Origin: an uncultured Clostridium sp.
GTDB taxonomy: Bacteria > Bacillota > Clostridia > Lachnospirales > Lachnospiraceae
Assembly: GCA_958349075.1 (NCBI GenBank)
Contig: CATWBR010000108.1
Coordinates: forward strand, 1 to 11,182
Reading direction: 5' to 3'
DNA length: 11,182 bases
The position numbers were made by a program, and so were the translations under genes. Each line of letters opens with the position of its first letter. Within the stretch, counting starts at the first letter, position 1. The notes below the pieces were generated by a model. That model ran no database searches and was not told the DNA's origin. It was given only the letters and a program-made list of their open reading frames with translations. Below, piece by piece: positions 1 through 11,182 of this stretch.

Positions 1-756
1 AAACAGAGTATCATAGAGACAAATAAATTATGTAAAACGTTTTCTTCCGGCGGCCGCCAGCAGCACGTTTTAAGGAACCTGGACTTGAGTATATACAAGG
101 GAGACTTTACCGTGATTATGGGGGCTTCCGGTTCGGGAAAATCCACCCTTCTCTATGCATTGTCGGGGATGGACCGTCCGACGCTTGGGACCGTACGTTA
201 CGGGGATACGGAGATCACGGGGATGAACGTCAGTGAGCTGGCGGTATTCCGCAGAAAAAACTGCGGCTTTGTCTTTCAGCAGATTCATCTGCTCGATAAT
301 ATGAGTGTACTGGACAATGTGCTGGCAGCCGGCCTTTTGATAAGCCGCGACCGCAGAAAGACGGCCGTCAGGGCAAAACTGCTTCTTTCTCAGGCCGGTA
401 TCCTAGAAGCGGATCTGGGGAAATTCCCGGCTCAGCTTTCCGGAGGGGAAGCACAGAGAGTGGGGATTGTACGGGCATTAATCAATGAACCGAAAATGAT
501 ATTTGCGGACGAACCTACAGGAGCCTTAAATTCGTCCTTTGGAACCCAGGTCCTCAACACGTTGACGGAGCTTAACCGGCAGGGGCAGAGCCTGGTTGTG
601 GTGACCCATGATGTGAAAACGGCCAGGCGGGCGAACCGGATCCTGTATCTGAAGGATGGTATGGTCTGCGGGGAGTGTCTGCTGGGAATGTATGAACACG
701 GCGATGGGGCACGCCATCAGAAGCTGGGAGCATTTTTAGATGAAATGGGGTGGTGA
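1..756 (+). CDS. ABC exporter ATP-binding subunit, LolD/MacB type (5'-partial)
   Basis: This is the cytoplasmic ATPase that should power the FtsX-type permease encoded next. The reading frame is open from base 1 (KQSIIETNKLCKTF...), so the gene enters from the left edge. A TTG at 85 is only an internal Leu codon and is not the start. By the usual family length only a few residues are missing. In window numbering (base 1 = residue 1) the Walker A motif GASGSGKST is at about 41-49, the Q-loop Gln at about 93, the signature LSGGE at 146-150, Walker B MIFADEP at 166-172 and the H-loop His at about 203. All catalytic motifs are intact. The C-terminus carries a short extension (about 20 residues) past the nucleotide-binding fold. 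The stop at 754-756 sits 1 base before the favoured permease start, so translation is probably coupled. The substrate cannot be read from this subunit. The family assignment is very secure. Confidence 0.96.
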   Translation, partial: KQSIIETNKLCKTFSSGGRQQHVLRNLDLSIYKGDFTVIMGASGSGKSTLLYALSGMDRPTLGTVRYGDTEITGMNVSELAVFRRKNCGFVFQQIHLLDNMSVLDNVLAAGLLISRDRRKTAVRAKLLLSQAGILEADLGKFPAQLSGGEAQRVGIVRALINEPKMIFADEPTGALNSSFGTQVLNTLTELNRQGQSLVVVTHDVKTARRANRILYLKDGMVCGECLLGMYEHGDGARHQKLGAFLDEMGW

Positions 757-757
757 T

Positions 758-3256
758 ATGGCAGTTTGGATGATTGCCCGTGCCGGTATCCGAAAGAAAA
801 GGGGAGTTGCCGTTTCCATGGGTATCCTGATAATGCTGGCCGCAGCCATGTTCGACGTGGGGCTCACCCTGCTGGCCGGAGTGGGGAGTTTTTATGACCG
901 GGAGAACGACCGGTTAAACGGAGCCCACTACATTGTCCGGTTTATGGGTAATTCCTACGAGGATGAATATCTGGACTATTTCCTGGAGGACAGCCGCGTG
1001 GAATCGGCAGAGACAGTGGAAGCGGTAATAATGAATATGGCAAGCTTTCCGGATGGGGGAGTTATTTCTCCCGATTTTATTCCGATGGAAGGCAAGGATC
1101 TGGCCAAAGGGTATGAGATCACGGAACAGACGGATGCGGCAGGCGACATGGCCGTATATGTCCCGGTGTTTTTCAAGGATATGGGATACCGTCTGGGCAG
1201 CAAGCTGGTTTTAGAATGCAATAAGCAGATTCTGGAATTTGAGATTGCCGGTTTTACACAGTCTACATGGTTTCAGTCCTCCGTGAGCAGCCTGGTGGAT
1301 ATCTATGTGCCGCAGAAGACCTATGAAAGGCTTTTTGAGATGACAGGCGGCGGATATCTGATTAAGGTACGTGCAAAAAATCAGGGGGATGTGGAAGCAA
1401 TCCGTAGGGATTTCAAGGAAAATACGGATATCGATATAGAAGCTATTTCCCTGACCTCGGAAGTGATGGATTTTTCTATCAATGAGATGCGGCAGGGCAG
1501 CACAATGGTGGTCAGTCTTTTGTCGGCCGTGCTGTTTATTTTTTCATTCCTGATGGTGCTGGTGGCCGTGATTGTCATGCGGTTCCACATCCGCAATCAT
1601 ATTGAGGCCCAGATGAGCAGCCTGGGAGCCATGAGCGCTATCGGATATACCGGAAACCAGATCAGATGGTCCATTGCCGTGGAATTCCTGATTATCAGTA
1701 CAATAGGCACGGTTCTCGGAGTCCTGGCTTCCTATGGGGTCATTGCCGGGCTGGGAGGAATTATCACCAGCTCGGTGGGCGTCTCGTGGACCGGCGGCCC
1801 GCACGGCGGCACAGACATGCTCAGCGCCCTTGCAATCATGGGAATTGTTCTGCTCGTATCTGTAAAAGCGGCGGGAAGGGCTGCAAAAATCCCTCCGATT
1901 GAGGCGCTGCGCGGTGGAATGAAGAGCCATAGCTTTGACAGGAATTATTTCCCTCTGGAACGGACGGCAGGGAAACTGCCGATGACTCTGGGAATTAAAA
2001 ATATGATGTTCCAGAAAAAGACGTATCTGATGGTGGGCTGTATCTTTACAGGGGTTGCCTTTGCCTGCGGGTTTGCAATAATCACCTGGTGGAACATGGG
2101 AAAGGACGATCAACTGGTCCGGAAACTGACCGGGTTTGAAATCAGCGATATCATGGTTTATACGGCGCCCCACACGGATTACGACGCCCTGGTTTCAGAG
2201 ATAGAGGCCATGGACGGAGTGAGTAAGACGAATCTCTACGAGACGGGATCGGCCAAGGTAAATGGAGAACTCCTGACTTCCTATCTGTCCGATGATTTCG
2301 GCAAGATGGAGATGGTGGAAGTCTACGAGGGAAGCTTCCCGAAGTATGATAATGAGATTGCCATCACCGGTGTGCTTGCCAAGGCATGGGGAAAGTCGGT
2401 CGGCGACACGGTCAGCGTCCAGACGGAGCAGGGCGTGGCAGAATATGTAATCAGCGGCCTGGGGCAGAGTATGAGCAATTTTGGCCGTCAGTGCTATTTA
2501 AACCTGGACGGGATGAAGCGGGTCTCTCCGTTCTATAAGAAGCACACAATCTCTGTCTATCTGGAACCGGGAATCGTTATAGAGGATTTTATCAGGAAAA
2601 TGGAACAGCGGTTTGAGGTACTGTCACCCTCGGGAAGTACGGTGGAAGAACAGAGGGAGAAGGATGCTGCGAGGAAGGCCGGAGAGAAAATGGCCGCGCT
2701 TTTGTCCTCCTACGGCGTGGACAGTGCCCAGTATGCCCTGATGGTGGACGGGGAGATTGTGCTTTCCGGCAGCACGGACAGCTTTGTGATCGACCGGATT
2801 GAAAATAACCGCAAACTGTTTGTCAGCAATGTGGACACAATCGCTTCCTCCATCGGAGTAATGTCGGTTGTCATTCTGTCCGGAACATTTTTTATGATTG
2901 TCCTGGTACTCTACATGGTAATACGGTCTATCCTGGTGCGGCAGAGGACGGAGTTCGGAATCTACAAAGCGATGGGATATACGGATCGCCAGTTGATGGA
3001 AATGATTGCATCCAGTTTTCTTCCTGTTTCGGTGGGGGGAACCCTGCTCGGCAGCATTCTGGCCTCCGTGGGCGTCAACCGACTGGCCAGCGTTCTGTTC
3101 GAACAGCTTGGCATCTCCAATCTGAAGATGGCAATCAATCCCTGTCTGATGGCCGGTACGGGAATTACCATCGTGGCTGCCGCGTTTCTCATCTCCATGG
3201 CGCTGGCTCGGAAAATTAAGGGAATCACAGTCTATGGGCTGCTGACGGAGGAATAA
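758..3256 (+). CDS. ABC transporter permease with two FtsX domains and two extracellular domains
   Basis: This is the membrane partner of the preceding ATPase. I favour the ATG at 758 (832 aa). It lies 1 base after the ATPase stop, has a G-rich site at 747-753, and gives the usual short basic N-terminus (MAVWMIARAGIRKKRG). An ATG at 740 (838 aa, GGGAG at 726-730, overlapping the ATPase) is possible and sets the numbering used here. Predicted helices: about 24-48, 257-280, 311-335, 361-378, 429-450, 703-730, 755-785 and 801-823. Extracellular domains span about 51-255 and 451-700. The protein is an internal duplication: SAIGYTGNQI (about 299-308) in the first FtsX half matches KAMGYTDRQL (743-752) in the second, and a typical KIPPIEALR linker follows helix 4. 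Such permeases usually export or sense peptides, lipids or antibiotics by mechanotransmission; the substrate here is unknown. The second extracellular domain carries about 50 extra residues (about 639-690) just before its final helix block; see the findings. Confidence 0.93.
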   Translation: MAVWMIARAGIRKKRGVAVSMGILIMLAAAMFDVGLTLLAGVGSFYDRENDRLNGAHYIVRFMGNSYEDEYLDYFLEDSRVESAETVEAVIMNMASFPDGGVISPDFIPMEGKDLAKGYEITEQTDAAGDMAVYVPVFFKDMGYRLGSKLVLECNKQILEFEIAGFTQSTWFQSSVSSLVDIYVPQKTYERLFEMTGGGYLIKVRAKNQGDVEAIRRDFKENTDIDIEAISLTSEVMDFSINEMRQGSTMVVSLLSAVLFIFSFLMVLVAVIVMRFHIRNHIEAQMSSLGAMSAIGYTGNQIRWSIAVEFLIISTIGTVLGVLASYGVIAGLGGIITSSVGVSWTGGPHGGTDMLSALAIMGIVLLVSVKAAGRAAKIPPIEALRGGMKSHSFDRNYFPLERTAGKLPMTLGIKNMMFQKKTYLMVGCIFTGVAFACGFAIITWWNMGKDDQLVRKLTGFEISDIMVYTAPHTDYDALVSEIEAMDGVSKTNLYETGSAKVNGELLTSYLSDDFGKMEMVEVYEGSFPKYDNEIAITGVLAKAWGKSVGDTVSVQTEQGVAEYVISGLGQSMSNFGRQCYLNLDGMKRVSPFYKKHTISVYLEPGIVIEDFIRKMEQRFEVLSPSGSTVEEQREKDAARKAGEKMAALLSSYGVDSAQYALMVDGEIVLSGSTDSFVIDRIENNRKLFVSNVDTIASSIGVMSVVILSGTFFMIVLVLYMVIRSILVRQRTEFGIYKAMGYTDRQLMEMIASSFLPVSVGGTLLGSILASVGVNRLASVLFEQLGISNLKMAINPCLMAGTGITIVAAAFLISMALARKIKGITVYGLLTEE
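3247..3251 (+). promoter_or_regulatory. Ribosome binding site of the serine hydrolase gene
   Basis: A GGAGG sits inside the last codons of the permease gene, 9 bases before the ATG at 3261. The hydrolase start is only 4 bases after the permease stop. The site supports this start and indicates a shared transcript. Confidence 0.75.
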
Positions 3257-3260
3257 TACT

Positions 3261-5336
3261 ATGAAAAACAGATGGAAAAAGGGGGCCGCTGCGCTCGGTC
3301 TGGCTGCCGTACTGTCCTTATCCGGCCATGCCGGGGACGTTTTGGCTGCGTCTTATGAAGACAGCGGGACAAAGCCGGTCCAAAGCAGGGAAAAACTCTA
3401 CGGCATCGGTTCTACCAGCAAGGTGATAGTAACCGCGGCCGTCATGAAACTGGCCGGGGAAGGAAAACTGTCACTTGACGAACCGCTTGTCCGTTATCTG
3501 CCGGAATTTGAAATGGGGGATCCGCGCTATGTCCTGATTACTCCGCGTATGCTTTTAAACCACAGTTCCGGCCTCCAGGGCGGAACGCTTACGAATTCCA
3601 TGCTACTGGGAGATTCTGATACCTACAATCACGATACGCTTCTTAAAAAACTGAAAACACAGAGGCTGAAAGCCGATCCGGGAGAATTTTCCACCTACTG
3701 CAACGATGGTTTTACCCTGGCGGAACTCCTGGTGGAGCGTGTCAGCGGCATGAGCTTTACGGAGTATATAGAACATGAATTTGCAGTTCCTCTCGGGCTT
3801 GAAAATTTTGCTACGCCGCAGACACCGGATATTCTCAAACGTGCGGCTGTGGTGTATGATCCTCAGACCGGAGAGCCTTTGCCGCCAGAGATGGCTAATG
3901 TCATCGGAAGCGGGGGAGTTTATGCCACAGCAGTGGATTTATGCCGGTTTTCCCGCCTTTTTATGAGGGATCAGGGGACGGCGGCGGGAATTCTGCCGCA
4001 GCAGGCCGTCCGGGAGATGGAGAAGAGTTCCTATGAAGCGGCGGCGAATCCGGAGCATATCGATTCCACGCTGTCTTACGGGCTTGGCTGGGACAGTGTG
4101 GATACCTATCCGTTCAGCCGTTACGGTATCAGGGCTCTGGTCAAGGGCGGAGACACCATGTTTTACCATTCAAGTTTGACCGTTCTGCCTGAAGAAAATG
4201 CGTCCTGCGCTGTGGTAACAAGCGGCGGTTCCAGTGTGGCCGCCCAGCTTGCTGCGCAGGAAATTCTGATGGAATATCTGGAGGAGACCGGGCGGATTGT
4301 CAGGGGGCCGGAGGATATGATGGCCGGAGCAGAGACAGAGGCTGCGGGGGAAATTACGAAAGAACTCATGGAATGCGGCGGACTCTATGCAGGGAGCGGA
4401 CTTTTGTCGCTCTCCATAGAGCAGGACGGAACCCTGACCCTGGAAAGCCGCGGCACAGGCCGTGACAAAAGCCAGGTCTATACTTACCGAAACGACGGCC
4501 GCTTTTACTCTGCAAACGGAAATTATATGGATATGTCGGGGCAGCTTGTAAGGAGCAGCAACGGCCGGACAGGGAAGACTTTCCTGGAATTCAGGAGGGG
4601 AGAGGACGGGATAAACCGTCTGATGTCAGGTACTTTTGAAACATACCCGAAGCTGGGAAGCACGGCGGTTTATCTGCCGGTGGCGGAACAGCTTACAGAG
4701 GTTCAGAGCGCGGAACGGCGGGCTGAAACAGAAGTCACAAAGCAAAAAGCGGTCCCGGAAATGTGGAGGGAACAGAATGAAAAAGAGTTCTATCTGGTGA
4801 GCGAGAAGAGTACATCCTCCTTTTACCTGTCTCACTTTATGGTGGAGCCGCTGGTGGGGGAAGAACCGGCCGGGTATCTTACCTTTGATGCAAATGAGCT
4901 GCGGATGGCGGCCATTACTTCGGAGGATAAGGCCGAATTTTTCCAGAAAATCCCGGGGCAGGCGGGCAGAGATTTGAGCGATTACCACATCGAAACACGG
5001 GAGGGGAACGTGTATCTCAGAAATGAGAGCTATCGTTTTATCCGCGAGGACGGAGCGGCTATCCTCACTGTGGGAGATCGGCCTGTAGTGATAGGGGAGG
5101 ATGGAGATACCAGGTGGAGAACATTCGGACAAGAGCAGGAGGGACATCCGGTATCTATAATAAAACCGGATTCCGGCGCATGGTATGTCTACGACCACAG
5201 CGGAAAAAAGATGAAGTGTGTGGCCAGTTCCTGGCTGATAGGTGACGGCGAACCCTTCCTGCTTCCTGCAAAGGGCCTGATCGCGTTTGCGGGGGAGACA
5301 GGAGATGAATTTATCGTAGCGCCGGCGGTTCAGTAA
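3261..5336 (+). CDS. Secreted serine hydrolase, class C beta-lactamase / DD-peptidase-like, with long C-terminal extension
   Basis: This is an exported enzyme of the penicillin-recognising serine hydrolase superfamily (beta-lactamase class C, DD-peptidase, esterase or D-aminopeptidase activities). A signal peptide covers residues 1 to about 29 (basic MKNRWKK, hydrophobic core, likely cut near VLA-AS). The active-site motifs are S51-T-S-K54 (SxxK), Y146-C-N148 (YxN) and K295-G-G297 at the KTG position, with a typical GSGGVYATAVDL segment at 217-226. The catalytic core ends near residue 345. Residues about 370-691 are a beta-rich region of unknown function without membrane helices, so the enzyme is either released or held non-covalently. 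Oddity: only about 22 residues separate the predicted signal cleavage site from Ser51, whereas family members usually have about 60 (R61 DD-peptidase uses Ser62 of the mature chain). The first beta-strands of the fold therefore seem to be missing. Context suggests work with the exporter at the envelope, perhaps on a peptide substrate. The true reaction cannot be told from sequence. Confidence 0.9.
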   Translation: MKNRWKKGAAALGLAAVLSLSGHAGDVLAASYEDSGTKPVQSREKLYGIGSTSKVIVTAAVMKLAGEGKLSLDEPLVRYLPEFEMGDPRYVLITPRMLLNHSSGLQGGTLTNSMLLGDSDTYNHDTLLKKLKTQRLKADPGEFSTYCNDGFTLAELLVERVSGMSFTEYIEHEFAVPLGLENFATPQTPDILKRAAVVYDPQTGEPLPPEMANVIGSGGVYATAVDLCRFSRLFMRDQGTAAGILPQQAVREMEKSSYEAAANPEHIDSTLSYGLGWDSVDTYPFSRYGIRALVKGGDTMFYHSSLTVLPEENASCAVVTSGGSSVAAQLAAQEILMEYLEETGRIVRGPEDMMAGAETEAAGEITKELMECGGLYAGSGLLSLSIEQDGTLTLESRGTGRDKSQVYTYRNDGRFYSANGNYMDMSGQLVRSSNGRTGKTFLEFRRGEDGINRLMSGTFETYPKLGSTAVYLPVAEQLTEVQSAERRAETEVTKQKAVPEMWREQNEKEFYLVSEKSTSSFYLSHFMVEPLVGEEPAGYLTFDANELRMAAITSEDKAEFFQKIPGQAGRDLSDYHIETREGNVYLRNESYRFIREDGAAILTVGDRPVVIGEDGDTRWRTFGQEQEGHPVSIIKPDSGAWYVYDHSGKKMKCVASSWLIGDGEPFLLPAKGLIAFAGETGDEFIVAPAVQ

Positions 5337-5350
5337 CGCACAGAATGTCC

Positions 5351-6643
5351 TTAAGCGCCGGCAAAGGGGATCAGCACATCCACGGAGAATCCGTCCTCAA
5401 GATTACGGCATTGGATATCGCCGCCCATCTGCTCCATCAGAAGACGGGAGATGTAGAGACCCAGTCCGGAGCCTTCGGCCTTTTCTTCGGCCTGACGGCT
5501 TCCGCGGTAATATTTTTGAAACAGGAAAGGGAGTTCCTCATCGGGGACTCCCTTTCCGAAGTCCCGGAACATTAATGCCAGTCCGCTTCCGGTCATAGTG
5601 GATGAGACATGGATGGCCGTGTCTGCATATTTGTATGAATTGTGGATGATATTATCGATGACCTGTGATATACGCAGGGTATCCATAAAAAGAAGACAGC
5701 CCGGAACCGGATCGAGATGTACCCGCTCACAGTAATCGGCGTCACGAATTATCGGAGCCAGAAGCTCACTGCTTTCCTCGGCCGGATTTACCGTCATTTT
5801 ACCCAAATCTTCCAGGGATGCCTGGAATAAATTGGTGACCAGGCGATCAATCTGCCCCGATTTTTCGTAGATGGTCCCGATTTTATCCCTGGTCTTTCCC
5901 TCAGCCTCCGTGGCCAGCAGCAGTTCGCTGATCAGCTTGATGGAGGCCACCGGTGTCTTGATATCGTGGCTCAGGGAGGCAATCAGTTCTTTTTTACTTC
6001 TGTCTGCCTCAGCCTCCCGCTGTCTGGCTTCCCTGAGCTGTTCGCGCATCAGATCAAAGCTCTCGGTAAACGCCCCGAAAATATGACCGCGGTCCATCGG
6101 CAGTGGAAGGTCCAGATTACCGGAAGCCACATGGCGGGCAAAGTCCTTCAGTTCCAGAAAGGGGCGGATGATACTGCGGTTTAAGTATAAGAGATAGAGG
6201 ACGGCCGGAACGGCCATAAACGCCAGGAAAAAGAGGGCGGAGGTTGTGAGCTGCCTCCGGCTCTTTGCCAGGAGATCATCGTAGGAGGTACGAATCAGAA
6301 CCTTACCCACGATAATACCGTCAGACTCCACATTAAGGACGGTCTGATGGTTTAAAACGGCATCATGGACCGAGGATGGCGCTGCATCGGAAGTGGCAAA
6401 AAGCAGCGTTCCCCGGTTGTCCAGAACCGAGTAATCATAAGAAATCCCGTCCACCTCTGAAATTCCGCCAAAATTTTCGAACTGTCCGGATTCCCAGGCA
6501 TCTGATGTCCCACGCACAATACGGTTGACCGCTACCGTATCGACCGGTGTTTCACGGATGCCGTCAGTGAGAGAGTGGAGAACCACACCGCCCAGAAGAA
6601 GATACAGAATGAGGGCCGTGATGAGCCATCTTTTACGGATCAT
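5351..6643 (-). CDS. Sensor histidine kinase (HAMP, HisKA, HATPase)
   Basis: This is a membrane sensor kinase of 430 aa that should phosphorylate the response regulator encoded just before it. Helix 1 is at about 7-27, an extracytoplasmic sensor region at about 28-133, helix 2 at about 134-154, then a HAMP linker at about 152-205. The H-box SHDIKTP carries the phospho-acceptor His226. The N-box is around N331/N335, the G1 box DFGKGVP at 361-367, the F-box around LPFLFQKYYRG at 371-381, and the G2 box GSGLGL at 391-396. Everything needed for kinase activity is present. The start at 6643 has GGAGG 7 bases upstream and overlaps the regulator stop by 4 bases (ATGA), which implies coupled translation. 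A roughly 106-residue outer domain sets it apart from intramembrane BceS-type sensors and makes it more like VncS. The ligand is unknown. It converges on the exporter/hydrolase operon with only 14 bases between stops and no recognisable terminator there. Confidence 0.95.
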   Translation of the reverse strand: MIRKRWLITALILYLLLGGVVLHSLTDGIRETPVDTVAVNRIVRGTSDAWESGQFENFGGISEVDGISYDYSVLDNRGTLLFATSDAAPSSVHDAVLNHQTVLNVESDGIIVGKVLIRTSYDDLLAKSRRQLTTSALFFLAFMAVPAVLYLLYLNRSIIRPFLELKDFARHVASGNLDLPLPMDRGHIFGAFTESFDLMREQLREARQREAEADRSKKELIASLSHDIKTPVASIKLISELLLATEAEGKTRDKIGTIYEKSGQIDRLVTNLFQASLEDLGKMTVNPAEESSELLAPIIRDADYCERVHLDPVPGCLLFMDTLRISQVIDNIIHNSYKYADTAIHVSSTMTGSGLALMFRDFGKGVPDEELPFLFQKYYRGSRQAEEKAEGSGLGLYISRLLMEQMGGDIQCRNLEDGFSVDVLIPFAGA

Positions 6644-7332
6644 ATGCTTTCCTCCGCATCAAAACGGTATCCGGTGCCCCAGACGGTTGCGATCCGTTCC
6701 GGATGGTTGGGATCTTTCTCAATCTTTTCCCGCAGATGGCGGATGTGGACCGACAGAGTTCCTTCCCCGACATAGGGATCCGGCCAGACCTGGCCGAGCA
6801 GTTCTTCTTTTGGGATCACACGTCCCGGATTTTGGGCCAGATAAACCAGGAGCTTAAATTCCATCTCCTTCAGACGGATGAGTTCTCCGTCCACAAAGAC
6901 CTTATGTCCCGGCAAATCAATGGTGACACGTCCGCTCGTCAGGGGACGGCTGTCCGAAGCCGCCGTCTGTGCGCAGCGCTTCAGCACAGCCTTCACCTTC
7001 GCAAGAAGAATGCTCAGGGTGTACGGTTTCTGAATATAGTCGTCGCCCCCGATATTCAGGGCGGTCAGAATATCGTCATCGCTTGTTCTGGCGCTGATAA
7101 AAAGAATCGGGATGTCCAGATTTTCCCTCAGCTTCTTGCAAAGGGCAAAACCGGACTGTTCGCCAAGATTGATGTCGAGAAGCAGGACGGATACTGTGTT
7201 TTCCCTCAAAAAATCGAGACATTCCCCATAGCCCGTCACATAGGCCGAGGAAACCTCAAACAGGTTAAAATATTCACTGGTGGACTGAGCGATGGCCAGC
7301 TCATCATCCACGATAAGACAGTCATAATGCAT
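6640..7332 (-). CDS. OmpR/PhoB-family response regulator
   Basis: This is a DNA-binding response regulator of 230 aa paired with the sensor kinase that follows. The receiver domain (1 to about 118) has the acidic pair D9-D10, phospho-acceptor D53 in LLLDINLG, the switch residue S80 (FISAR) and K102 (IQKPY). A winged-helix DNA-binding domain occupies about 131-225 and includes the recognition region GTLSVHIRHLREKIE and the C-terminal hairpin VWGTGYRF. The start ATG at 7332 has AAGGAG 7 bases upstream. It is the first gene of the two-gene transcript, and a promoter-like TATAAT lies about 80 bases upstream on the same strand. Likely targets are the exporter/hydrolase operon, its own promoter, or the divergent peptidase gene. 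None of these can be proven here because the exporter promoter lies outside the window. Confidence 0.96.
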   Translation of the reverse strand: MHYDCLIVDDELAIAQSTSEYFNLFEVSSAYVTGYGECLDFLRENTVSVLLLDINLGEQSGFALCKKLRENLDIPILFISARTSDDDILTALNIGGDDYIQKPYTLSILLAKVKAVLKRCAQTAASDSRPLTSGRVTIDLPGHKVFVDGELIRLKEMEFKLLVYLAQNPGRVIPKEELLGQVWPDPYVGEGTLSVHIRHLREKIEKDPNHPERIATVWGTGYRFDAEESI

Positions 7333-7409
7333 GTAAATTCTCCTTGGAGTGTTCTAGAGGGTGCCTTCAAATTGCGGGAATGAATTTTAAGACACTCTCT
7401 GGTGCTGTT

Positions 7410-7415
7410 ATTATA
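7410..7415 (-). promoter_or_regulatory. Candidate -10 box for the two-component operon
   Basis: Read on the - strand this is a perfect TATAAT, about 78 bases upstream of the response regulator start. The hexamer at the expected -35 spacing (TTTCCT) is a weak match. Placement and strand fit the regulator-kinase transcript, but the call rests mainly on the -10 sequence. The leader would be about 70 bases long. Confidence 0.45.
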
Positions 7416-7492
7416 TCATGGAGGGATTTAAAAGGAAAGCAGATGGCCGAACCGGTCAGTCCGGGCTGGCCGTACAGAAGTAAAAAGTGTTA

Positions 7493-7566
7493 TACATTTT
7501 CTGCGCGTTTAAATCGGGATTTTCCTGCACAATGCATCTTAACCGGGATTTTTTTTGCAAAATACG
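7493..7566. repeat. Imperfect ~29-bp direct repeat upstream of the peptidase promoter
   Basis: Two adjacent units share a CGGGATTTT core (starting at 7515 and 7544, 29 bases apart), each followed by a TGCA-containing segment: TCCTGCACAATGCAT in the first and TTTTGCAAAATACGAT in the second. A weaker partial third copy (ACATTTTCTGCGCG) sits just before them at about 7494-7507. The array ends about 20 bases before the likely -35 region of the peptidase promoter, a plausible place for a tandem activator or repressor site. It could also be chance similarity in A+T-rich DNA. Confidence 0.4.
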
Positions 7567-7606
7567 ATGTTCCCCATACGGAATACTGTCTGTAACCGGT
7601 AAGTTA

Positions 7607-7615
7607 TGGTATAAT
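7607..7615 (+). promoter_or_regulatory. Extended -10 promoter of the S41 peptidase gene
   Basis: The sequence TGGTATAAT gives a perfect TATAAT at 7610-7615 preceded by the TGn extension. The region at -35 spacing (7587-7592, TGTCTG) is poor, which is common for extended -10 promoters. Transcription would start near 7622, just ahead of the ribosome binding site, giving a leader of about 25 bases. Confidence 0.65.
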
Positions 7616-7634
7616 GTGCACAAAAGAGAGAATC

Positions 7635-7640
7635 AGGAGG
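7635..7640 (+). promoter_or_regulatory. Strong ribosome binding site that fixes a TTG start
   Basis: A perfect AGGAGG lies 7 bases before the TTG at 7648. No in-frame ATG or GTG lies nearby that would keep the lipoprotein signal, so this site decides the start of the peptidase gene. Confidence 0.85.
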
Positions 7641-7647
7641 TAGCCAT

Positions 7648-9006
7648 TTGAAACGAATCATAAACGCCTGTGCGGCTGCCTGCATTGCGGCAATTTCCCT
7701 TTCCGCCTGCAGCCCGTCATCAGCCCCTGCCCAGAAAACCGAACCTGCTTCCGTGGAGACAACCGCGTCCGGCACCCATGCGGATATGGTTCTGTCAAAG
7801 GAAGAGATGTTGTCCGATTATAATAACATGTGGACCGTAATGGGACAGAGCTATCCGTTCTGGGGAGTGCTAAGCCGCAGCAACCCTGAAAACCCGCATT
7901 ACTATGACGATGTCATTGATGATTACAGAAAACAGATTGAGGATATGGATTTGGACGGCGACGCCGCCATGTGGAAGTTTATCGAGATTATCTCGAACAG
8001 TCTTTACGATGTTTGCGGCACAACCGGCCATGTCGGGATATTAAATCCCCACTATTTCCGTGATTTTAGAAGCGCCAATGAGAAGTACCTGAGTGAGATG
8101 CCGGATTTGCAGCCCTGGGTCGATTTGGGCCGTAAGCCGGAGGTCAACGCATTCTATGAATATTACGATTATCTGTTGACGCTCCTGCCGGATATGCCTC
8201 CGGAGACAGAGGCTGAAACTCCGGATGGAACAGATAGTATAGGGGATACAGACACATCTATGGTTTCAAAAGATTTGGCTGAGCCGAATCTGGTTACGGA
8301 AATACTGTCCGAGGAGCACAAGGCTGCTTACATAAAGGTGGATTCCTTCGAGGATGGAATGATGGAAGAAGACCTGCCGAAAATAAGCAGTTTTTTGAAC
8401 GAAGTCAGGGATTATGACCATCTGATTATTGATATCCAAAATAACGGCGGCGGAAATACCGTCTACTGGGAAGAGGCTTTTGTCCGGCCGAATATCACTG
8501 CTCCTGCAGAGTACCGAACACTTCGGATGATGGAGGATGACGAGCTGAGCAGACGGTTTTACGGTTCCATGTATCGCGATTCCTCCATAAGTGTGGAGGA
8601 TATTAAAAACGATCCAAAACTGAACCGTCTGCCCGAAGAAGACATGGCAGGCATGGCCTTTGCAAGGGAAATCAGCGACACGATAGAACCTGAATTTGAT
8701 GATAAGCTGTTCAGGGGCAAAATATGGGTGCTTACGAGTCCCAATGTGTTCTCCTCGTCAGAGGCATTTGCGGTGTTCTGTAAGGAGAGCGGTTTTGCAA
8801 CGCTGGTCGGCCGGACGACGGGTGGTTCGGACAGCGGAGGCCCGGTGTGGTATGAACTGCCGGAAAGCCATCTGCTGATGGTGTTTGATGTGGAATACTG
8901 CCTGAATTCCGATGGGAGCTGCAACATGGAGCACGGAACTGTGCCGGATATCGAGACGGATGATGCGCTGGGGACTGTGATGGAAATTATTGGGGTGCAG
9001 CAGTGA
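7648..9006 (+). CDS. S41-family peptidase lipoprotein without a PDZ domain
   Basis: This is a predicted cell-surface lipoprotein of 452 aa in the S41 (C-terminal processing / tricorn-core) peptidase superfamily. The TTG start follows a perfect AGGAGG. The signal peptide ends in the lipobox L18-S-A-C21, followed by a low-complexity linker (about 22-45). The S41 core has a strand-plus-loop KAAYIKVDSF (about 225-234), the DIQNNGGG motif (262-269) and a nucleophile region VFSSSEAF (367-374). By alignment to the SxSE pattern of the family, S369 is the likely nucleophile. The T-x-G segment is RTTGGSDSGG (389-398), and a PDIETDDAL tail lies near the end. The position where CtpA-type enzymes carry the catalytic Lys shows no Lys. 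The enzyme may instead follow the Ser/His arrangement of tricorn-like S41B members, with H128 in GTTGHVGIL as a candidate. There is no PDZ domain; an acidic spacer (about 184-205) lies between the N-terminal part and the core. The gene is monocistronic and divergent from the two-component genes. Substrate unknown. Confidence 0.9.
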   Translation: MKRIINACAAACIAAISLSACSPSSAPAQKTEPASVETTASGTHADMVLSKEEMLSDYNNMWTVMGQSYPFWGVLSRSNPENPHYYDDVIDDYRKQIEDMDLDGDAAMWKFIEIISNSLYDVCGTTGHVGILNPHYFRDFRSANEKYLSEMPDLQPWVDLGRKPEVNAFYEYYDYLLTLLPDMPPETEAETPDGTDSIGDTDTSMVSKDLAEPNLVTEILSEEHKAAYIKVDSFEDGMMEEDLPKISSFLNEVRDYDHLIIDIQNNGGGNTVYWEEAFVRPNITAPAEYRTLRMMEDDELSRRFYGSMYRDSSISVEDIKNDPKLNRLPEEDMAGMAFAREISDTIEPEFDDKLFRGKIWVLTSPNVFSSSEAFAVFCKESGFATLVGRTTGGSDSGGPVWYELPESHLLMVFDVEYCLNSDGSCNMEHGTVPDIETDDALGTVMEIIGVQQ

Positions 9007-9095
9007 GAGAAGGCAGAGCTTTTGTTCTTTATGTTTTTACCGTAGAATAGATAAAATGGAATGTTACAAAACAACAATTTCATATTCTTATGGAC

Positions 9096-9145
9096 AATAA
9101 ATGTCCCTCCACCCATGTCAGACGGTGGAGGGCATTTATTTTTTT
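9096..9145 (+). terminator. Strong intrinsic terminator after the peptidase gene
   Basis: The arms CCCTCCACC (9105-9113) and GGTGGAGGG (9124-9132) pair perfectly around a 10-base loop. After one bulged T at 9104, the stem continues with AATAAATG (9096-9103) against CATTTATT (9133-9140). That is a stem of about 17 bp followed by a run of seven T (9139-9145). It lies about 90 bases past the peptidase stop. On the other strand the same hairpin sits about 130 bases past the recombinase stop and could also end that transcript, although the T-tract there is poor. Confidence 0.9.
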
Positions 9146-9269
9146 ATTCACATCGTATCCTCTTCAGATATTTGTGGCAGGGCCATTCTGCCGGTTTCTG
9201 TTCCGCATACTGTCCGGTGCAATTGACACATTTGGAGGAAGGAAAGAGGCAGAATTTTGGAAATAAAGA

Positions 9270-10325
9270 CTAATTATCCCTTAGCTGCACTTTATTTCGC
9301 GCACTGCGCCGGCGCTCGTCCTCCAGCGCGGCGTAGTGCTTTTTGGTCGTATTCACATCCGAATGTCCCAGCACATCGGCAACCAGGTAAATATCACCGG
9401 TTTCACGGTAAAGGCTGGTGCCGTATGTGCTCCTGAGTTTGTGAGGCGTTATGGTTTTTAGGGGAGTCACGATGCGGGCGTATTTTTTTACGAGATTTTC
9501 CACACTCCTCACATTCATCCGTTTTCTCTGCAGAGAGAGGAAGAGGGCGGATTCATGGCCGGGCTCGGCTGTCACGTGTTTCCGTTCATCAATATAATCT
9601 TTCAGGGCGAATTCAACTTCGGAACCAAAGTAGATAATAACCTCTTTACCGCCTTTGCGGTGGATTCTTAGGCCTCCCGTTTCAAAATCAATGTCGTACA
9701 GGTTCAGGCCGACACATTCCGAAACACGGATTCCGGTTCCCAGGAGAAGGGTCATCAGGGCCAGATCGCGAAGACGTGTCTTCACATGAAACTCCCGCTG
9801 TTTTTCCGTCAGGCGGCCGCCTTCGTCCACCTGATCCAGGAGCTTTGCAACCTCATCAACTTCCAGACGGATAATTTCCTTCTCGTGCAGCCTGGGAAGT
9901 TCTACCAGGGCGGCCGGATTGTTTTTAATGCGTTCCCTGCGGTAAAAGTAATTGTAAAAGCTCTTTAAAGAGGACATTTTCCGCATAATGCCGCGTTCCG
10001 TGTTGACAAGCTCCTCTTTTTTGTCCGTGGAATAGCATTTCAGGAATTCCATGTATTCTTCCAAATCCATCAGTTGGATCTCATCCAGGACAGAGAGAGA
10101 GAAGTCCTGCATTTTATAGTCTGAAAAAAGAGGATTCTGTTTCTTTAAAAATTCGAAAAAAGTCTTTAGGTCGTAGGCGTAGGCAATTCTTGTCCTGGAG
10201 GAGGTACGCGGTTCGATTCCCCGGAAAAAATCGGCGCAGAAGGGCGGAAGTTCCTTCATCATCTGGCGCAGCCTTTTTGTATTCTCAAGTGTTTCCTGCT
10301 CATGGTAAGAGAGTGGCTTTCCCAT
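9270..10325 (-). CDS. Tyrosine recombinase / phage-type integrase (XerC/D-like)
   Basis: This is a site-specific DNA recombinase of 351 aa that would cleave and rejoin DNA through a tyrosine-phosphate intermediate. The N-terminal SAM-like core-binding domain (about 25-145) is followed by the catalytic domain (about 150-340). The catalytic set is complete: R200 in LLGTGIRVSE, the beta-hairpin lysine region RKGGKE (223-228), H295-K-L-R298, H321 in LGHSD and the nucleophile Y331 in KKHYAAL. The protein is about 50 residues longer than typical XerC/XerD, mainly through an N-terminal extension and a longer first domain. The start at 10325 has AAGGAG 10 bases upstream. It follows the TtcA-like gene by 24 bases on the same strand, so it is probably co-transcribed with a housekeeping-type gene. 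No excisionase, tRNA attachment site or other mobile genes are visible. It may be a resident recombinase or a domesticated remnant; its target site is unknown. Confidence 0.93.
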   Translation of the reverse strand: MGKPLSYHEQETLENTKRLRQMMKELPPFCADFFRGIEPRTSSRTRIAYAYDLKTFFEFLKKQNPLFSDYKMQDFSLSVLDEIQLMDLEEYMEFLKCYSTDKKEELVNTERGIMRKMSSLKSFYNYFYRRERIKNNPAALVELPRLHEKEIIRLEVDEVAKLLDQVDEGGRLTEKQREFHVKTRLRDLALMTLLLGTGIRVSECVGLNLYDIDFETGGLRIHRKGGKEVIIYFGSEVEFALKDYIDERKHVTAEPGHESALFLSLQRKRMNVRSVENLVKKYARIVTPLKTITPHKLRSTYGTSLYRETGDIYLVADVLGHSDVNTTKKHYAALEDERRRSARNKVQLRDN

Positions 10326-10335
10326 ATAAAATCAA

Positions 10336-10341
10336 CTCCTT
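10336..10341 (-). promoter_or_regulatory. Ribosome binding site of the recombinase gene
   Basis: AAGGAG on the - strand lies 10 bases before the ATG at 10325, inside the 24-base gap after the TtcA-like stop. There is no room for a separate promoter in this gap, which supports a shared transcript. Confidence 0.7.
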
Positions 10342-10349
10342 CTTCGGTG

Positions 10350-11075
10350 TTACCGGCGTTTTTGCGGCCAACCCTCAATATTGCCTTCGGTAATAGCATG
10401 GAAAAAGCGTTCTTTTACGCCTGGAGCATCGAGGTTCAGTTGCTTTGTTAATTGTTTAACATATTCGCGTTTTGTTTTTCCGTCCACCGGACAGGGATTT
10501 TTGCATACCGGCAGTTGATACCGGTTCTTAAATCCTATGACATCGGCTTCATTTACATATATCATAGGTCTGATTACCGTAATCCCCGTACGGTCCAGAA
10601 ATGTTTCCGGGGAAAAAGAATAGAAACGGCCTTCATAGATCAGGGATAAAAGCATCGTTTCGATTAAATCGTCGCGGTGATGTGCATAGGCAATTTTATT
10701 GCAGCCAAGACGTATGGCAGCCTCATTCAGGGCGCCTTTTCTCATTTTGGCGCACAGCGCACAGGGATTGGATTCTTTGCGGGTGTCGAAAAGGATTTTT
10801 CCAATTTCCGTAGGTACAACCGTATATTCCACGGATAATTCTTTACAGAGCGCTTGTACAGGCGATAAATCGAAATCGCCGAATCCTAAATCAACGGTAA
10901 TCGCACATAAATTAAATTTATTAGGATAAAACTTCTGAAGGCCCTGTAATGCATAAAGCAGGGTCAGGCTGTCCTTACCCCCGGAGATGCCGACCGCAAT
11001 TTTATCACCGGGCCGTATCAGGCCGTAGTCATCAATGGCCTGGCGGGTTAGACTGAGCAGACGTTGGATTTTCAT
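10350..11075 (-). CDS. ttcA: TtcA-family tRNA 2-thiolation protein (PP-loop ATPase)
   Basis: This is an adenine-nucleotide alpha-hydrolase of 241 aa that fits the TtcA family. In characterised members the enzyme adenylates cytidine 32 of certain tRNAs and replaces its oxygen with sulfur, using a [4Fe-4S] cluster. The PP-loop SGGKDS is at 31-36. A CxxC pair is at C105 and C108 (NPCALCAKMRKG). A third conserved Cys is C195 or C191 in VCKNPCPVDGKTKRE. The AYAHHRDDLIETMLL block at about 129-143 is typical of the family. These cysteines set it apart from TilS lysidine synthetases. The length is shorter than the E. coli protein (about 310 aa), and firmicute relatives are often of this shorter kind, so the exact tRNA position modified is an inference. 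The start at 11075 has AAAGGAG 11 bases upstream. It is the first gene of an apparent two-gene operon with the recombinase. Confidence 0.88.
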   Translation of the reverse strand: MKIQRLLSLTRQAIDDYGLIRPGDKIAVGISGGKDSLTLLYALQGLQKFYPNKFNLCAITVDLGFGDFDLSPVQALCKELSVEYTVVPTEIGKILFDTRKESNPCALCAKMRKGALNEAAIRLGCNKIAYAHHRDDLIETMLLSLIYEGRFYSFSPETFLDRTGITVIRPMIYVNEADVIGFKNRYQLPVCKNPCPVDGKTKREYVKQLTKQLNLDAPGVKERFFHAITEGNIEGWPQKRR

Positions 11076-11108
11076 AGAGTAATTGGCTCCTTTGTATGTT
11101 TGATGTGG

Positions 11109-11142
11109 AACTATTCGATAAAGTAGACTTTCACGAATAGTT
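11109..11142. repeat. 34-bp dyad in the leader of the TtcA-recombinase operon
   Basis: Perfect 9-bp arms AACTATTCG (11109-11117) and CGAATAGTT (11134-11142) flank a 16-base middle that itself contains AAAGT-AG-ACTTT (11120-11131). Divided as 13 + 8 + 13, the outer arms match at 11 of 13 positions. On the - strand it lies 33 bases before the TtcA-like start. As RNA it could fold into a 9-bp plus 4-bp stem with a tetraloop, but no T-run follows, so it is not an ordinary terminator. It could be a protein operator, a regulatory RNA hairpin or a recombinase target. Confidence 0.75.
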
Positions 11143-11153
11143 GGATATGTAGG

Positions 11154-11166
11154 CAGTATACTACTG
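11154..11166 (-). promoter_or_regulatory. Candidate -10 region overlapping a small palindrome
   Basis: The - strand reads TATACT at 11160-11155, a good -10 match placed about 80 bases upstream of the TtcA-like start. The -35 element would fall at or just beyond the window edge, where TGATT is visible. The -10 lies inside a perfect palindrome, CAGTA-TAC-TACTG (11154-11166), a possible operator. The transcript would begin near 11148, putting the 34-bp dyad in its leader. Confidence 0.4.
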
Positions 11167-11182
11167 TTTCATATAAAAATCA

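Follow-up and report, generated by a model that had tools for sequence, protein, structure and literature searches.

A putative S12 hydrolase N-terminal subdomain in a type VII ABC permease encoded beside a hydrolase that lacks one

Introduction

Type VII (MacB-like) ATP-binding cassette (ABC) transporters dock and control extracellular enzymes. To our knowledge, the route from their ATP cycle to the active site of the enzyme is mostly unclear. Here we analysed a stretch of 11,182 nucleotides from an uncultured Clostridium sp. of the Lachnospiraceae (assembly GCA_958349075.1, contig CATWBR010000108.1, positions 1 to 11,182; hereafter the window), in which a type VII permease is encoded immediately before a serine hydrolase of family S12. 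The permease carries in its second extracellular domain a segment that, judged by sequence comparison, corresponds to the N-terminal helix α1 and β-hairpin of S12 hydrolases, and the adjacent hydrolase has no such N-terminus.

The closest described systems differ in the enzyme or in its attachment. According to the accessible part of one report, the TesA of E. coli YbbAP-TesA is a separate enzyme docked on top of the two YbbP domains, and YbbAP, a type VII transporter, is proposed to hand substrate from the membrane to the hydrolase atop its extracellular domains; BceAB is without the first of these domains (PMC12646458). Lip3 of Paenibacillus is described, in the part of the source available, as a lipopeptide-induced enzyme that cleaves DL-amide bonds of syringafactin (PMC13188892). 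Searches of an open-licence library listed no title or abstract opening that describes an enzyme fold split between a transporter and a hydrolase.

Results

The permease contains a segment resembling hydrolase N-termini

The permease gene (740..3256, + strand; 838 aa) encodes a type VII (MacB/YbbP-like) ABC permease with two extracellular domains, and its homologues suggest the ATG at 758 as the likely start. A first-pass annotation, made from the letters of the window, had pointed to about 50 extra residues before the final helices. The extra residues are real: in segment-less permeases the profile match halts at about column 606-630 and, where continued, resumes at 680-703, and the permeases of 397 family and 391 class genomes fall into two classes, with a match that is either unbroken through the segment or interrupted. 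They are not confined to this permease. The segment was present in 29/29 permeases of 52-92% identity and missing in the single permease at 26%, and is thus a family-wide trait. These genome searches scored two permease candidates and two or three hydrolase candidates per genome, so the counts given here are lower bounds.

The segment (residues 633-683; 2636..2788, +) follows the stretch FEVLSPSG (residues 625-632) and consists of a linker, the putative helix α1 and the putative β-hairpin, the latter including VDSAQYALMVDGEIVLSG (residues 660-677, V660 to G677). Among relatives, the linker that precedes the helix (2636-2662, with counterparts in the relatives L002 and L003) differs widely in both length and sequence, as would fit a flexible arm.

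A hidden Markov model (HMM) built from hydrolase N-termini only matched residues 642-679 of the window permease (2663..2776, +) at 38.8 bits; the maximum was 6.2 bits among 8600 shuffled permeases and 0.2 bits among 46 segment-less permeases. An hhalign comparison of 26 permease segments with 24 hydrolase N-termini gave an expect value (E) of 2.2e-19, and BLASTP aligned the window segment with the hydrolase P0204 at 50% identity over 38 residues (E 3e-9), each value referring to a single comparison; the aligned stretches include LVSEYGVSGIQYALISDGEIVLSGTSG in P0204 and LLSSYGVDSAQYALMVDGEIVLSGSTD in the window permease. The same segment was found just before the enzymes' own SxxK motif in hydrolases of the genomes G690 and G464 and of Clostridioides (Cwp20), Clostridium, Anaerocolumna and Paenibacillus. 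The HMM detected 41/43 segment permeases, 38 of them at E <1e-3. Two results weigh against this reading: the divergent segment permeases L037 and L071 were missed by this HMM, and a Pfam scan of the 26 bare segments did not find PF00144, the best match being Imm64 (0.0058) in one of them. L071 was matched by an HMM of the permease segments (2e-10), and the L037 segment was among the sequences from which that HMM was built. On these sequence comparisons we conclude that the permease segment is homologous to the N-terminal α1 and β-hairpin of S12 hydrolases. The first-pass annotation had seen in the permease a likeness to the hairpin missing from the hydrolase and had offered chance likeness as the alternative. 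The resemblance was confirmed, chance was contradicted by the shuffled and segment-less controls and is rejected, and the piece proved to be more than a hairpin, as it also includes the preceding α1.

P0204 (1388 aa) was matched twice by the window segment, at 31-68 and 717-748, which suggests two hydrolase modules in one chain. P0223 (1331 aa) and P0233 (1323 aa) are likewise long proteins.

The adjacent hydrolase lacks this N-terminus and keeps its catalytic motifs

The SxxK, YxN and KTG-like motifs define S12, or class C β-lactamase-fold, hydrolases. The hydrolase gene of the window (3261..5336, +) matches PF00144 at E 7.3e-48 (163.9 bits, cut-off 27), and all three motifs are present: S51-T-S-K54 (3411..3422, +), which we take to be catalytic, Y146-C-N148 (3696..3704, +) and K295-G-G297 (4143..4151, +). 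Their residues S51, S53, K54, Y146, N148, K295 and G297 are invariant in the 13 rows of alignment A4. Ser51 stands directly behind a signal peptide and a linker of ~20 residues. The first-pass annotation had noticed this short distance. The hairpin is likewise missing in 28/29 inspected relatives (of 120 listed), in which a signal peptide and linker are followed by YGIGS[TV]SK; the 29th, P0044, starts downstream of the hairpin position. The proteins P0031-P0036 were left out of the alignment. Neither the window hydrolase nor these hairpin-less relatives contain α1 and the β-hairpin within the hydrolase chain; the permease has them instead. Consistent with a truncated front, the first profile position covered by the Pfam Beta-lactamase match is 45-49 (of 329) in the closest relatives, the hydrolases of G001, G002 and G003, whereas the majority of the remaining S12 proteins in the four genomes concerned are matched from position 1-21. 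For the window hydrolase, the match extends back as far as position 28.

Residues 41-686 of the window hydrolase match PDB entry 9sn1 (Lip3 DL-peptidase; E 1.6e-120) from chain residue 54 onward only. The 9sn1 chain from residue 3 onward aligns with the built-in segment of the relative P0205, an alignment by which Lip3 is an enzyme with a built-in segment. A true class C β-lactamase was considered for the window hydrolase and rejected, NCBIfam bla_class_C scoring 38 bits against a curated cut-off of 415. A simple hydropathy scan found no later transmembrane-like stretch in 16/16 split hydrolases. The L105 hydrolase, read by eye, may carry a lipobox.

Segment-bearing permeases and hairpin-less hydrolases occur together

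The hydrolase profile gave 27 matches at E <=1e-40 in the 397 family genomes. Fourteen lacked the N-terminal hairpin, and 14/14 adjoin a segment-bearing permease. Eight had a built-in segment, and none of these (0/8) has a segment-bearing permease in its flanks (at least 2.7 kb on each side). Three had a conventional hairpin, and two were not classed (G243, cut at a contig end, and G276, a broken locus). G347 and G168 contain both the split and the built-in form. The class sample added the split form in G700 and G633, both paired, and the built-in form in G690 (twice) and G464, without pairing in any of them; 1.6 kb from one of the G690 copies lies a segment-less permease that matches distantly. 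No segment-bearing permease was found in the flanks examined of the two Cwp20 loci, L140 and L141. The G162 pair and the second pair of G332 were completed from additional flanking sequence, and in one comparison the motif pattern passed over two conventional hydrolases.

In 17/17 split loci examined in context (window included), the ATPase, permease, hairpin-less hydrolase and response regulator stand together. Segment-bearing permeases without a hydrolase neighbour, which would have spoken against the idea of the first-pass annotation, were thus absent from these loci; in the sampled loci, the segment is kept only together with its hydrolase. The loci are kin, so that 14/14 does not represent 14 independent events, and this lessens the weight of the pairing. 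In the broken locus L128 (G276:C64, 3677-6281), the front of a permease runs without N bases directly into the back of a hydrolase, with the segment and the hydrolase front missing; this junction may be a deletion or an assembly error.

A sensor kinase accompanies 16/17 split loci, and the 17th stretch ends just past the regulator. The kinase/regulator pair suggests a sensed ligand, and the segment could then be an inhibitor or pseudo-hairpin that keeps the hydrolase inactive until the transporter senses that ligand, since the data do not tell activation and inhibition apart. The hydrolase, however, has no hairpin of its own for such a competitor to displace, and we consider inhibition very improbable.

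Structure models differ on docking

In S12 enzymes, the strands of the α1-associated hairpin belong to the core sheet. Two AlphaFold models of the relative L004 were obtained, each with permease and hydrolase joined in one chain (1200 and 821 residues). Built-in hydrolases were left out of the predictions, as they are not alignable to the permease hairpin in one chain. The modelled permease shows two strand-rich extracellular blocks with YbbAP as the best match, and in both models the segment is predicted as a helix and two strands. In one model, the permease segment is placed where S12 enzymes have theirs in 35/35 listed S12-fold rows, rows that were assigned from titles and recall and whose ranges give the first and last aligned residues only; one of them (7spn) has a root-mean-square deviation of 16.5. 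Lip3 stands first in the Foldseek list for the 821-residue model, and the L004 hydrolase shares 40% identity with it in the structural alignment.

Several features of the models speak against such completion. In the 1200-residue model the hairpin is formed and no docking is visible; the 19 S12-fold rows listed for this model begin within the leader of the hydrolase itself (842-887). The hydrolase is weak in both models (predicted template modelling score 0.54 and 0.53), the segment has a predicted local distance difference test value of ~55-75, and the Foldseek template modelling score of the 821-residue model against 9sn1 is low (0.36 by target). Packing of the hairpin on the hydrolase sheet, as envisaged in the first-pass annotation, is therefore predicted by one model and not by the other. 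Its wider proposal that a permease domain complements the enzyme core draws support from the homology, the pairing and this one model.

The transposed segment might also be a docking handle only, by which a hydrolase that folds and works without it is recruited to the transporter. A lone hydrolase should be unstable, because the hairpin strands are core sheet in S12 enzymes, and the segment retains the residue pattern of the built-in hairpin. On the other side, the hydrolase keeps its catalytic motifs without a hairpin of its own, its residues 41-686 do align with Lip3, and YbbAP-TesA offers a precedent, in the accessible part of its description, for a type VII transporter that carries a docked enzyme (PMC12646458). 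Taken together, we regard a handle without a role in the fold as improbable.

The segment is conserved in the manner of a built-in hairpin

Of the eight permease stretches compared within the close family, conservation is highest in the hairpin, with a mean commonest-residue share of 0.887, compared with 0.719 for the rest of extracellular domain 2 and 0.369 for the preceding linker. Column conservation in the segment followed that in the built-in hairpin (Spearman 0.47 in true register; shifts of up to 6 gave -0.23 to 0.16), and 19/37 columns have the same commonest residue in both. The ratio of non-synonymous to synonymous substitution rates (dN/dS) in the segment was ~0.1 in the window-L001 and L002-L003 pairs, indicating purifying selection that is not stronger than in the rest of the gene. 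Two values lessen the force of these comparisons: a first comparison that included a mostly gapped column was weaker (0.36 in register, up to 0.32 when slid), and in the window-L001 pair the rest of extracellular domain 2 has a lower dN/dS (0.03) than the segment.

These values bear on a further explanation: the segment could be a relic, or simply a regular part of the permease's own fold, with a historical or convergent resemblance to hydrolases. Its position inside extracellular domain 2 and its helix and hairpin in both models would suit an ordinary element. Segment-less relatives are nevertheless full permeases. The hairpin is the best conserved of the stretches compared, is under purifying selection and is absent from the permeases whose operons have no hydrolase. 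Its appearance is not that of a relic, and we disfavour this explanation more strongly than any other weighed here.

The split arrangement is old

A tree of 45 permeases, 24 of them a selection of the segment-less ones, was built from columns with at least 70% occupancy, which left the segment out. The segment-less L027 and L072 join segment-bearing permeases in this tree with a Shimodaira-Hasegawa-like approximate likelihood ratio (SH-aLRT) support of 100. In wider flanks their operons keep the ATPase, permease, regulator and kinase; the hydrolase was not found there, and no hydrolase match at E 1e-40 occurred among the two or three best candidates scored in each of their genomes. Three changes of segment state are required on this tree. 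For the two nested segment-less permeases, losses are the most parsimonious interpretation, although this pair could instead mark extra gains. In L152 (G718; 3054-8159, - strand), an S12 hydrolase that has a conventional hairpin of its own stands beside a segment-less permease and an ATPase, an unsplit transporter-hydrolase pair; the G718 permease sits on a long branch.

The first-pass annotation had proposed that a coding segment was exchanged or transposed between the neighbouring genes. Transposition is supported; a recent exchange in this genome is rejected, as the arrangement is common to relatives down to 22-31% permease identity. By these comparisons, the split arrangement is old, conserved and fixed. 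The permease copy is taken as derived because most inspected conventional S12 relatives, the outgroup, have a hairpin before SxxK. The hydrolase tree was made without five conventional rows, four of them on or joined to long branches and the fifth L056 (G401), whose hairpin has no clear α1 and which nested in the built-in group in an earlier tree. This quick tree gathers the built-in rows into a single group (SH-aLRT 81), next to a split group for which two changes must be assumed, much as in the earlier tree; later re-fusion is possible. The order could accordingly be reversed, with the split form first in the lineage and the Cwp20-like built-in form arising by re-fusion. One split clade is, however, not rejected (p = 0.097 in the approximately unbiased test), and the hairpins of the outgroup point the other way. 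We hold the reversed order to be unlikely, though less so than the other alternatives; it would alter the history only and leave the mechanism unchanged.

Other features of the locus

The ATPase of the module (1..756, +) matches PF00005 at E 2.3e-29 and is 94% identical to that of the close relative L001, by which its gene start probably lies just left of the window. The sensor histidine kinase (5351..6643, -; HisKA, HATPase_c) has, from a reading of its sequence, an extracellular stretch of ~110 residues apparently between two membrane helices, and in this it is presumably unlike BceS-type kinases. The response regulator (6640..7332, -) contains PF00072 and PF00486. Between it and a tyrosine recombinase lies an S41-family peptidase gene with a TTG start (7648-9006, +). 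L001 has no open reading frame of at least 200 aa between its regulator (end 12728) and its recombinase (start 13053).

Discussion

A shared enzyme fold as a working model

We propose, with a probability of roughly 0.8, that the N-terminal subdomain of an S12 hydrolase (helix α1 and strands B1-B2) was relocated to the adjacent type VII permease, within its extracellular domain 2, was lost from the hydrolase and is now supplied in trans to complete the enzyme on the transporter. The mature secreted hydrolase would start ~20 residues before the catalytic serine and is expected to have an open sheet edge. At the cell surface it may dock on the permease, as in one of the two models, and the donated α1, B1 and B2 would both complete its fold and tether it to the transporter. 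In this group of gut bacteria, the two proteins must thus probably meet to form one complete, transporter-controlled enzyme.

DL-amide cleavage is suggested as the chemistry of the window hydrolase because it is a relative of Lip3; 9sn1 is taken from its name to be the Paenibacillus Lip3 described in the available part of the source (PMC13188892). By this analogy the hydrolase is probably a peptidase, and might cleave peptides with D-residues such as lipopeptides. The transporter could supply the enzyme with amphiphilic substrate taken from the membrane, in the way proposed for YbbAP-TesA, and the module might be induced through the kinase/regulator pair in response to a ligand. The weakest step is the last, in which ATP-driven movement of the extracellular domain would switch the enzyme on and off. 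Gating by fold completion, with an indispensable part of the enzyme fold residing in the transporter and moved by ATP-driven mechanotransmission so that the active enzyme is assembled and disassembled, is a tentative extension to which we give somewhat less than even odds.

If the proposal is true, this is a natural split enzyme shared by a membrane protein and a secreted protein. As a putative core secondary-structure element of the enzyme sits in the transporter, the interface can be named to the residue, and this placement enables a direct experiment on whether the segment completes the enzyme. Related bacteria provide natural controls in the form of built-in enzymes and of operons without both segment and enzyme.

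Comparison with known systems

The permease belongs with type VII (MacB-like) ABC transporters by its FtsX and MacB_PCD domains and by the separate ATPase gene found in 17/17 split loci. FtsEX acting with EnvC, PcsB or RipC likewise pairs a type VII ABC protein with an extracellular hydrolase under its control; the hydrolases are different ones, and no shared fold is described in the portion of that literature available. The window permease has two extracellular blocks, so it does not fall with BceAB-RS, for which no hydrolase partner is described in the accessible part of the source (PMC12646458). On the enzyme side, Lip3 has the same motifs as the window hydrolase and is related to it over the catalytic and C-terminal parts and, unlike it, carries the segment itself. 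Clostridioides Cwp20 belongs to the same hydrolase family and has the same N-terminal segment; it differs in being self-contained, with a C-terminal PF04122 domain. The module as a whole is closest to the YbbAP-TesA type, with two extracellular domains and a YbbP-like permease architecture. Its enzyme is not related to TesA: the Pfam match in the window is PF00144, the PDB relatives are S12-type and TesA is not among the 15 matched. Compared with YbbAP-TesA, then, the hydrolase here is of the S12 type, part of its fold appears to reside inside the permease, and a two-component system is attached.
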